A stretch of 8,632 nt of DNA from a bacterium (lineage in GTDB: Bacteria; Blakebacterota; Blakebacteria; Blakebacterales; Blakebacteraceae): contig JALGWK010000054.1 in NCBI GenBank assembly GCA_025774205.1, forward strand, positions 1-8,632, written 5' to 3'. The notes beneath the pieces are model-generated. The model was not told the origin of the DNA and did not search any database. It saw nothing but the letters and a program-made list of their open reading frames with translations. Each line of letters begins with the position of its first letter. Within the stretch, counting starts at the first letter, position 1. Below, piece by piece: positions 5,013 through 8,632 of this stretch. Made by a program: the position numbers and the translations under genes.

Positions 5013-6578
5013 ATGGAACGAAGAAACCTTCCCGCAACCCTGGCGATCCCGCTCATCCTGATCCTGTTCGCTGCTCCGCTGACAGGCGCCGCTGCCGCCG
5101 GACAGCAGAATCCGGCAGTCTACCGGCCCGGCGAGATGGTTGTTCTGAACAGGGATATGGCCCTGCGGCTGGCTCTCGACCAGTCGTGGCGGATCGAGGA
5201 GATGAAGCTGCATCTGCGGCGTGACACCTGGAACCTCGAATCGAACCGTGCCGCGCTCAAGTCGAATGCGAGCATGAGTTTCACTCTGCCCAACTACGAC
5301 CAGTCTATCAAGGAGATCATCGATCCCTCCACCGGCGACCCGATCGTGCTCGGGACCCGCTCGGCCCGGTACGCGGGCAGTATCTCCATCAAGCAACCCC
5401 TGCCGACCGATGGGGTCGTCTCACTGAACGGCTCCTTCAACCGGACCTCAGACAGGCTCTTCTCCTACACCCCGGGTCGAAAGGCGTATTACGGAAATGT
5501 CTTCCTCCGCTACGAGCAGCCGATCCTGCGGCCGAACCGGATCCAGGTGGCGATCCGGCGGGCCGAGCTGACGCTGGAGAACACCCAGCTGGAATTCGTG
5601 GGCAAGCAGATCGATATCATCCGGGACATCTCCCGGGCGTATTTCGAATTGTACGAGCGGACCTACCAGGACCAGCTGGCGATCGAGGAGCAACAGCGAC
5701 TCGAACAGCTCTACGAGGCGGGTCGACGACGCTTCCAGCGGGGCGACCTCACCGAGATCGACCTCCTCCAGCTGGAGGTCGACCTGCTCGACAAGCGGAA
5801 CAAGTCCTCCAGCAGTACCGGACGGTTGACCCGTGAGAAGAGCAACTTCAAGAACGCCATCGGTCTTCCACAGGAAATAGCTATCACGATCGAGCCCGAC
5901 CTGACCTTCACCCCGATCGAGATCGATGCCGATCTGGCCATTGAGCGAGCCTTCGAGTACCGCTCCGATCTCAGGCGGAATGAGATGTGGCGCGAGGGGC
6001 ACGAGATGACCATCGAAGAGACCCGTTCACACGGACGGATGAGCGGCAGTGTGAGCCTCACCCTCGGGCTGGAGGGGCGGGGGGATGAGATGGGGCAGTT
6101 CTATGACAACATCCTCGACCCCGACCAGGCCCGGGGCGCGGCCATCAGCTTCAACGTTCCCCTGTGGGATTGGGGTCGCAACCAGGCCCGGCTCAACGCC
6201 CAGCTCGCCGACCTGGAGCGGATCGATCGGTCGCGGGACCAGACCCGCCTCAATATCGAGCGGGGGGTCGTAAGTACGGTCGACCGGGTCGCCGAGGCCC
6301 AGACCAGGCTCGACCTGCTGGTGAGCAGTCTCGATGCCGCCGAGCGCTCCTACCGCCTGGCGGTGCAGCAGTTCGAGTCGGGATCGCTCAACGTCCAGGA
6401 TCTCCTCCTGACCCAGGGGCGGCTGGCCAGTACGCGGCGCAACTACCTGTCCGCCTACCTCGACTACCGGCGGGCGCTCATCGATCTGCTCCGGAATACG
6501 TATTGGGACTGGGAGAAGGAGCAGCCCCTGACCAGGACCCTGGCCACCTATATCGTGGAGAGCGACAGCGATTTCTGA
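5013..6578 (+). CDS. TolC-family outer-membrane efflux protein
   Basis: A 521-residue protein of the outer membrane efflux (TolC/OEP) family, which as a trimer forms a barrel in the outer membrane and an alpha-helical tunnel across the periplasm. Residues 7-30 are a signal peptide ending in Ala/Gly (GAAAAG). The two expected repeats are visible: an N-terminal half with long coiled-coil helices around 176-282 (including LEQLYEAGRRRFQRGDLTEID), and a C-terminal half around 385-490 with the matching ERSYRLAVQQFESGSLN and VQDLLLTQGRLASTRRNYL. ISFNVPLWDWGRNQARL (378-394) is the typical strand-to-helix turn. Length is at the upper normal end. ATG 5013 follows GAGGAG (4997-5002). No inner-membrane pump or adaptor gene is next to it, and a terminator follows, so it is either an orphan partner or belongs to a complex encoded elsewhere. 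Substrate unknown. Confidence 0.92.
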   Translation: MERRNLPATLAIPLILILFAAPLTGAAAAGQQNPAVYRPGEMVVLNRDMALRLALDQSWRIEEMKLHLRRDTWNLESNRAALKSNASMSFTLPNYDQSIKEIIDPSTGDPIVLGTRSARYAGSISIKQPLPTDGVVSLNGSFNRTSDRLFSYTPGRKAYYGNVFLRYEQPILRPNRIQVAIRRAELTLENTQLEFVGKQIDIIRDISRAYFELYERTYQDQLAIEEQQRLEQLYEAGRRRFQRGDLTEIDLLQLEVDLLDKRNKSSSSTGRLTREKSNFKNAIGLPQEIAITIEPDLTFTPIEIDADLAIERAFEYRSDLRRNEMWREGHEMTIEETRSHGRMSGSVSLTLGLEGRGDEMGQFYDNILDPDQARGAAISFNVPLWDWGRNQARLNAQLADLERIDRSRDQTRLNIERGVVSTVDRVAEAQTRLDLLVSSLDAAERSYRLAVQQFESGSLNVQDLLLTQGRLASTRRNYLSAYLDYRRALIDLLRNTYWDWEKEQPLTRTLATYIVESDSDF

Positions 6579-6644
6579 TCGTTGAGCACTGAAGGGAACA
6601 ATCAACTCGACATCCGGCCGAGACCGGTTCGATCGAAGGGAGTG

Positions 6645-6672
6645 AAGGGGGACCTTACCGGGTCCCCTTTTT
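6645..6672 (+). terminator. Rho-independent terminator after the TolC-like gene
   Basis: GGGGACC (6648-6654) pairs perfectly with GGTCCCC (6661-6667) across a 6-nt loop, and further A-T and G-T pairs extend the stem. A run of five T (6668-6672) follows. It ends the envelope gene block and insulates the sigma operon. Confidence 0.88.
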
Positions 6673-6702
6673 CATGCAACAATCCGGGTTCCGACCGCGC
6701 CT

Positions 6703-6726
6703 TTGATATGAGATCAACAGGAGGAG
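6703..6726 (+). promoter_or_regulatory. Dyad and strong ribosome site before the ECF sigma gene
   Basis: AGGAGGAG (6719-6726) is a near-perfect Shine-Dalgarno two bases before the sigma ATG at 6729, counted from its end, and it fixes that start against a longer upstream reading. Directly before it, TTGAT-ATGAG-ATCAA (6703-6717) is a perfect dyad with 5-nt arms. It could be an operator or a short RNA hairpin. No convincing ECF promoter was found. Confidence 0.5.
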
Positions 6727-6728
6727 CG

Positions 6729-7298
6729 ATGTCACTGCCGGACGAACAACTGATCGAACGGACTCTCGCCGGGGACCTGGAGGGCTTCGGTGAACTCCAC
6801 CGACGCTACTTCGCGCGCGTTGTGGGAGTCGTAGAGGGGATCCTCTCCGATCGATCGGGAGCCGAGGATACCGTGCAGAACGCTTATGTCGCTGCCCTGC
6901 AGGCGCTCCCCCGTCTGGCCGACAAGGACCGGTTCTATCCCTGGCTCCGCCGGATCGCGGTTAATCGCGCCATCGAGGAGAAACGCCGCCTCGACCGGAA
7001 GGGCCGGCTTCATTCGTCGTGGGTCGAGGCCGGACGGGTCGACCGGGATGCTGACGATGCTCCCTCCGCGCCCCTGGCCTCCCTTGTACGGGAGGAAAGG
7101 GCGGAACGGGTCAGGGATGCCCTCGATGAACTCCCGGATGGGATGAGGGCCGCGGTCGTGCTCCGCTTCTTCGACGAACTGCCGATGAGCCGGATCGCGG
7201 AAGTGCTGGGCTGCGAAGAGGTGACCGCGAGAACCCAGGTCTTCCGGGGACTCAGGAAACTCGGTCGGATATTGGGCGATATGACTGCCGATGAATGA
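6729..7298 (+). CDS. ECF-type RNA polymerase sigma factor
   Basis: A 189-residue extracytoplasmic-function sigma factor. Region sigma2 spans about 5-88 and shows the core-binding and -10 elements: GAEDTVQNAYVAALQAL (44-60) and FYPWLRRIAVNRAIEEKRR (69-87). Residues 89-120 are a polar linker. Region sigma4 (about 125-182) has ALDELPDGMRAAVVLRFFDE and a helix-turn-helix, MSRIAEVLGCEEVTARTQVF, for -35 recognition. The protein directs RNA polymerase to a stress or envelope regulon and should be held by the anti-sigma factor encoded next. The ATG at 6729 sits behind a strong AGGAGG; the frame is open further upstream, but that part crosses the terminator and is not coding. The gene abuts the anti-sigma gene, so the products are probably made together. 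The ECF subgroup cannot be set by eye. Confidence 0.92.
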   Translation: MSLPDEQLIERTLAGDLEGFGELHRRYFARVVGVVEGILSDRSGAEDTVQNAYVAALQALPRLADKDRFYPWLRRIAVNRAIEEKRRLDRKGRLHSSWVEAGRVDRDADDAPSAPLASLVREERAERVRDALDELPDGMRAAVVLRFFDELPMSRIAEVLGCEEVTARTQVFRGLRKLGRILGDMTADE

Positions 7299-7309
7299 GG
7301 GATGATGAG

Positions 7310-8188
7310 ATGAACGTATCAGATCACACCGGAAATGAAGCGTGCCCCGAACGGGAGCAGACACTCGAACTGTATCTGTTCGGTCAGCTCCGTGAAGGGG
7401 AGAAGGAGGATCTCCGGGAACATCTCGAATCGTGCCCAGGGTGTCGGATGGCGCTGGATGAGGCCGTCTCCGGCATGGAAGGGCTGGATGATCTGGATGA
7501 ACCGCCGCTTCCCTTCGGGGATATCTCCCCGCGACCGGAGGAACAGATCGCCGCGGAGCGGGCCTGGTCCCGATTCGTGGGAGGCGTGCCCGGCCGGGAA
7601 AACCGGCCGGACCGGTGGTCGTGGACTCGCGTGGCGGCCGCGGCAGCGCTGGTACTGGTCGGGATCGGGATCGGGTACTGGGGTCTCCCCGGGGAACCGA
7701 CACCGATGGAGGATCCAATCGCGATCGTTTCGGCGGAGGTCGACTCCGGTGCCGTGGAGGCCCTCGTCCGGGCCGAGTTCCTGGCCGACCTGGGCCTGCC
7801 CTGGATCGAAGGAGTACTGGAACTGGTCGCGATGGTGATGGAACTCGATCAGGGAGATGTTGCCGTCGGCAACGTGGAAATGATTCGGGCGCGTGCCCGC
7901 GATCTGCTGCGGGACGGGAGTCTTCTGCAGAGACGGCTGGAGCCTGAACGCGACCGGATCTTCCTGGCAACCATAGGCCGGGCAGCCTTCTTCCTGGAGG
8001 ATGTGGCCGTCCTCGGAAGTGGGGGTGGTGAAGAGGGATCATTGCGCGAATTGAGGGATACCCTCCAGATGACCGGTCTCGGGGACCGGCTGGTGGCTCT
8101 CGATGTTGACGGGGCGGTGTCCGAGGCCCTCGAAGCATCGGGCTGGATCGGTGAGGAATACGCACAGAGCAGGGAGACAAGACGATGA
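7310..8188 (+). CDS. Zinc-finger (ZAS) transmembrane anti-sigma factor with long periplasmic domain
   Basis: A 292-residue single-pass membrane protein. The cytoplasmic N-terminus has the zinc-binding anti-sigma motif HLESCPGC (His38, Cys42, Cys45), preceded by LELYLFGQLREGE, typical of ZAS domains that hold ECF sigma factors. A proline/acid-rich linker follows. Residues 108-125 (VAAAAALVLVGIGIGYWG) are one membrane span. About 165 residues then lie outside; they are helix-rich and contain acidic patches and no cysteine, and I recognise no domain. This outer part is the likely sensor. Start: ATG 7310 has GAGGG 8 nt upstream; the ATG at 7295, overlapping the sigma stop as ATGA, would add five residues and could be used by coupling. 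The 3' end overlaps the next start codon as ATGA. A hairpin at 7590-7610 lies inside the gene. Confidence 0.85.
   Translation: MNVSDHTGNEACPEREQTLELYLFGQLREGEKEDLREHLESCPGCRMALDEAVSGMEGLDDLDEPPLPFGDISPRPEEQIAAERAWSRFVGGVPGRENRPDRWSWTRVAAAAALVLVGIGIGYWGLPGEPTPMEDPIAIVSAEVDSGAVEALVRAEFLADLGLPWIEGVLELVAMVMELDQGDVAVGNVEMIRARARDLLRDGSLLQRRLEPERDRIFLATIGRAAFFLEDVAVLGSGGGEEGSLRELRDTLQMTGLGDRLVALDVDGAVSEALEASGWIGEEYAQSRETRR
7590..7610 (+). repeat. Perfect 8-bp hairpin inside the anti-sigma gene
   Basis: CCGGCCGG (7590-7597) and CCGGCCGG (7603-7610) flank GAAAA. Because the octamer is its own complement, the copies are both direct and inverted repeats. The stem codes for the linker just before the membrane span. 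No T-run follows, so it is not a normal terminator; an mRNA attenuation or pausing role is possible but unproven. Confidence 0.45.
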
Positions 8189-8313
8189 GATTCGGGAAAT
8201 GTATGACAGGGACAGGGTGGACAGAAAGAGTGATGACGCTGGTCTGCCTGGGGATATTGCTGGCGTCAGCGAGCGATTCGAGCGCGCGCTGGAACTCTTC
8301 CGGGAGGTGGTGA
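8185..8313 (+). pseudogene. Signal-peptide start of the third sigma-operon gene, frameshifted
   Basis: ATG 8185 overlaps the anti-sigma stop as ATGA and has AGGGAG (8171-8176) 8 nt upstream, the best ribosome site here. It encodes MRFGKCMTGTGWTERV, then the hydrophobic MTLVCLGILLASAS and an SSA cleavage-like end: a convincing signal peptide. The frame then stops at TGA 8311-8313 after only 42 residues. The natural continuation, a TPR protein, lies in another frame from about 8277. A loss of one base (or gain of two) between roughly 8262 and 8285 would explain this. It may be a real mutation or a sequence error; no slippery heptamer was seen. Confidence 0.65.
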
Positions 8314-8632
8314 CAGAGCACTCGCAGAGCAGCCGGGTCGACGATGCCCAATACTATGTCGGCTACACTCTCGAGCGGATGGGACGCGGCAGCGAGGCCG
8401 TGGAGGCGTATGAAGAACTGATCCGTCGGTGGCCTGATTCATCACGGGTCGAGTCGGCCCGATCGCATCTGGTAGACCTTGTTGGAAGGCAGGGAAGCAC
8501 GACCCGTCAGATGCCGCTCGACGAACTGCTCTCGAGCAGTACCTCGTGGGAGCTGAGAAGAGATGTTGTCTACGCCATGGCCCGCGCGGGTGATTTCGCC
8601 GCCGTGTCGATCCTCGAGGAGGCGATGCGGCG
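8199..8632 (+). CDS. TPR/HEAT-repeat protein body (partial, 3' end outside window)
   Basis: This frame is open from ATG 8199 to the window end (144 codons), but only from about 8277 does it look like protein. Residues from FERALELFREVVTEH through DDAQYYVGYTLERMGRGSEA and AVEAYEELIRRWPDSS form two tetratricopeptide-type repeats of the YbgF/outer-membrane TPR kind. After a linker (STTRQMPLDELLSSS) the part SWELRRDVVYAMARAGDF and SILEEAMRR resembles a HEAT repeat, probably the first of several. Such repeats are protein-binding scaffolds; in an ECF sigma operon a secreted one may sense or assemble envelope partners. ATG 8199 has only a badly spaced purine run before it and the first 26 residues are charged and unlike a signal peptide. 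The true start is therefore more likely 8185 in the other frame. Confidence 0.7.
   Translation, partial: MYDRDRVDRKSDDAGLPGDIAGVSERFERALELFREVVTEHSQSSRVDDAQYYVGYTLERMGRGSEAVEAYEELIRRWPDSSRVESARSHLVDLVGRQGSTTRQMPLDELLSSSTSWELRRDVVYAMARAGDFAAVSILEEAMR

Follow-up and report, generated by a model that had tools for sequence, protein, structure and literature searches.

The closest counterpart of the locus described here is found in a genome of the same genus (G001; record JALGVQ010000043.1, the metagenome-assembled genome of bacterium isolate Meg19_1012_Bin_119), in which the genes of an ECF sigma factor operon follow in the same order and the third gene has its signal peptide in the same position. 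In this relative, the third gene reads without a break through 661 residues, in a single frame from the ATG equivalent to position 8185 of our sequence, and its product consists of a signal peptide, MRIGKDVRRPLGRVMTLAYLGALLVSLSPVQA, followed by QEE, TPRs and HEAT repeats (HEAT_2, E 1.3e-12). In this intact homologue (locus L003, 1354-3339), an SSV/SSSV motif recurs every ~33 residues across the HEAT repeats, about one per repeat (11 copies of SSV). A second counterpart occurs in a genome of the same family (G002, contig C190), where an anti-sigma-like (zf-type) gene lies directly 5' of the gene for a TPR/HEAT-like protein, which is encoded in a single frame and has a hydrophobic N-terminus; its repeats are related to the TPR part of our locus, but the identity is ~31-37% and the N-terminal linker is different. 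The matches in a scan of genome contigs were the G001 record and one unrelated record only, and no publication was retrieved when the literature was searched for the combination of ECF sigma factor, anti-sigma factor, HEAT repeat and tetratricopeptide.

The window (the whole stretch of DNA analysed, 8632 nucleotides) is the complete contig C169 of a draft metagenome assembly (G000; 3.09 Mb, 527 contigs, 86% complete), and position 8632 is the physical end of the contig. At its other end, positions 1-285 of the minus strand look, by eye, like the N-terminus of a MarR-type regulator clipped by the left contig end. The first gene of the operon, at 6729-7298 on the plus strand with ATG 6729 as the preferred start, encodes an ECF-type RNA polymerase sigma factor (Sigma70_r2 and Sigma70_r4_2 in Pfam and NCBIfam). 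It is followed on the same strand by an open reading frame at 7295-8188 for a zf-HC2 anti-sigma factor (PF13490, E 8.8e-6), which also matches an NCBIfam anti-sigma model at E 4.9e-13, under the curated cut-off of that model. On a by-eye reading, the anti-sigma factor probably has one transmembrane segment, VAAAAALVLVGIGIGYWGL; it shares 69% identity with its G001 counterpart (omega ~0.27). Both genes are intact in the window. Examined as an ECF sigma/zf-HC2 anti-sigma operon with a TPR-HEAT third gene, the locus has all of the relevant domains, the HEAT domain having been scored on the G001 protein only.

The third gene begins on the plus strand with ATG 8185, which overlaps the end of the anti-sigma gene (ATGA) and lies downstream of a plausible ribosome site, GCAGGGAGACAAGACG. 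Its 5' end, at 8185-8313, encodes MRFGKCMTGTGWTERVMTLVCLGILLASASDSSARW and matches the signal-peptide region of the uninterrupted gene in G001, but past a deletion junction this frame is out of register and it terminates at the stop codon 8311-8313. The TPR sequence lies one base back, within an open frame at 8103-8630, and the stretch from 8271 to the contig end at 8632 (plus strand) encodes the TPR repeats (TPR_6, E 5.9e-8; TPR_14, E 6e-8) and the start of the HEAT repeats, with 76% protein identity to G001. Since position 8632 is the physical end of the contig, the gene is also truncated in the window. The split between frames is not due to chance, because both halves are colinear with a single intact frame in G001. 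An earlier sequence-only reading had noted the ribosome site, the ATGA overlap, the signal peptide and its stop, and the TPR sequence one base back; all of these are borne out by the open reading frames, the Pfam matches and the colinear alignment, and its proposal that the third operon gene specifies an exported TPR/HEAT protein agrees with the intact gene in the same operon of G001.

The same reading attributed the split to the loss of one base near 8262-8285. Alignment with the G001 DNA shows that a one-base deletion cannot be the whole explanation: a net 67 bp within the 661-residue frame of the relative has no counterpart in the window, at a junction that maps to 8267-8275 on the plus strand, and the TPR frame stands in the -1 register because of this net loss. 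MAFFT places a single 67-bp gap directly 3' of GGCGTC, and another aligner divides it into 48 and 19 bp around AGCGAG. The absent segment spans the end of the signal peptide, the mature N-terminus and the first helix of the first TPR (the first half of TPR 1). In consequence, the signal peptide is not joined directly to the FERALELF segment in the homologue, as had been envisaged; ~22 residues intervene in G001, around P-VQA-QEEASTMYLEAREHLIEE.

The 3' part of the gene was located at the very end of another contig of the same assembly (C143, 3386 bp), the downstream genes of which align to the same G001 contig, so that C169 and C143 are most likely neighbours. The recovered HEAT part is 84-85% identical to G001 and contains two further breaks: 16 bp (CGCCGGTCTCGATCGG) are repeated perfectly in tandem, and 85 bp are deleted. 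The ~678 bp between the two parts were not found anywhere in the G000 assembly. No sign of an insertion element splitting the gene was seen; both contigs end within the gene, and an element could still lie at the gap. In G001 (C320, ~6060-7650; L057), ~1.6 kb separates the HEAT gene from a glycosylasparaginase-like gene, and the matching interval on C143 is much shorter.

The frame break in the window is probably an assembly artefact, an explanation that the sequence-only reading had listed among its alternatives as sequence error. In the living organism, the third gene would most likely be ordinary and intact and encode an exported TPR-HEAT solenoid protein, and a local assembly error would have dropped 67 bp where the signal peptide meets the first TPR. 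Such a loss would be one more instance of the false deletions and short tandem duplications that recur in the draft assembly. The artefact reading accounts for the break, its size, its closeness to the contig end and the indels that accompany it.

The strongest evidence comes from rpoB (C111, 7444-11109; loci L181 and L191). Its sole match in G000 lacks exactly 63 bp, in frame, in the region ~8300-9850, with a GGCCG repeat at the deletion junction; the 21 conserved residues thereby missing are present in both G001 and G002. We take these residues to lie in the rifampicin region, a central part of RNA polymerase, and a cell without them is not expected to survive. The rpoB loss is thus almost certainly an assembly deletion, and at least one false deletion of such size is almost certainly present in the assembly; an indel of the same kind is seen in a gene that cannot be broken in a living cell. 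Because RNA polymerase, too, is short of 21 essential residues in this assembly, we do not regard the split third gene as a new biological mechanism. On the same contig, a 31-bp deletion splits fusA (EF-G; C111:603, L191) in the VGGVIPREYIPSV segment; this is weaker evidence than rpoB because C438 carries another EF-G paralogue whose frame is open throughout.

The same class of break recurs, at a rate that can be measured, in other, unrelated genes of the assembly. In the comparison of orthologous genes between G000 and G001, 7 of 54 are in more than one frame in G000 and 7 of 53 in G001; a few of these represent paralogues or alignment ambiguity, and we therefore relied on the inspected cases. 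In G000 they include 127 bp lost on C274, 22 bp lost twice on C56 and a 5-bp tandem duplication on C417. Conserved genes of G001 show a perfect 10-bp tandem duplication (C57:3749) and losses of 65 bp (C260:19473) and 37 bp (C117:4414). Outside the two contigs of the third gene (C169 and C143), the G000 rate is ~0.09 events per kb (6 events in ~66 kb aligned, rpoB counted). Seven of the nine G000 events fall within 1.6 kb of a contig end, compared with 33% of the aligned bases, a threshold that was picked post hoc with the data already seen; without the third gene the clustering is weaker (4 of 6, P ~0.10).

The main rival is that the gene is a true young pseudogene, in which case the population itself would carry the 67-bp deletion, the 16-bp duplication and the 85-bp deletion, and the exported partner would have been lost recently. 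Three frame-breaking indels in ~1.1 kb do exceed the assembly background of ~0.09 per kb, and a search of G000 for another, intact copy gave only a paralogue (on C224) with ~34-37% identity. Nevertheless, omega against G001 is ~0.14 over the TPR stretch of the window and ~0.15 over the HEAT stretch of C143; there is purifying selection on both sides of the breaks, and the value lies below the 0.27 of the anti-sigma gene. Relaxed selection is thus not observed, although a very recent break would leave omega unchanged; the gene was maintained as a protein up to the very recent past, or is so even now. Upstream, the genes of the sigma and anti-sigma factors are undamaged, rpoB and fusA of the same assembly carry indels of the same class, and all three indels of the third gene lie 358-591 bp from contig ends, the 67-bp junction being the one at 358 bp. 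Local difficulty of assembly, with both contigs ending in the third gene, would explain the excess of indels as well as decay does. We consider a young pseudogene unlikely on this evidence, and it is likewise doubtful that an exported TPR-HEAT partner has been lost from an intact ECF sigma/anti-sigma pair, with the sigma factor left under altered control.

A cytoplasmic product starting at ATG 8199 in the TPR frame is very improbable. That frame is indeed open from 8199 to the contig end, but the first 24 residues, MYDRDRVDRKSDDAGLPGDIAGVS, are an out-of-frame reading of the signal-peptide region, the proper frame of which matches the G001 signal peptide, and there is no good ribosome site 5' of 8199. 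The start is unsupported because the ATG of the one close homologue aligns with 8185 and opens a signal peptide. Programmed -1 frameshifting that links the signal peptide to the TPR body is the least credible of all, for although the TPR frame lies at -1 relative to the short signal-peptide frame and overlaps all of it, no heptamer of the form X_XXY_YYZ occurs in the correct frame at positions 8185-8313 (GGGAAAT at 8194 is the sole match and lies in a different frame), a shift cannot supply the ~22 extra residues of the relative's single frame, and the two-frame layout is not conserved, the G001 and G002 homologues both being single-frame. From the sequence-only reading, the exported TPR/HEAT gene, the split frames and the option of error are retained; the one-base loss, the direct joining, the -1 shift and the start at 8199 are not.

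With an assembly artefact as the preferred explanation, the frame break itself reveals no new biology, and attention returns to the native protein. Its signal peptide and its position in the operon suggest that it operates beyond the cytoplasm, together with the membrane anti-sigma factor. The envelope is the probable site of action of the exported TPR-HEAT solenoid, which would be either a sensing partner or a main output of the sigma factor. For users of these genomes, the consequence is more practical: both G000 and G001 contain deletions and tandem duplications of ~5-130 bp that are probably false (in G000, about one per 10 kb aligned), and claims of pseudogenes, frameshifts or protein fusions from either assembly need to be checked against a relative or the reads. 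The rpoB gene provides a clear internal control for false indels, and its gap could itself be mistaken for the mark of an atypical RNA polymerase or for a resistance allele.

Samples from the Guaymas Basin, including core Meg19, were assembled from short reads with IDBA-UD (PMC10290634); this is the assembler given for the samples, and that used for G000 may differ. Assembly error is a documented source of spurious pseudogenes (Cooley and Wright 2024, PMC11017572). As in that study, the breaks described here affect the frames of conserved genes and are ascribed to assembly and not to evolution; unlike that study, which left out metagenome-assembled genomes, ours concerns two such assemblies, G000 and G001, in which many of the indels are tens of base pairs long.
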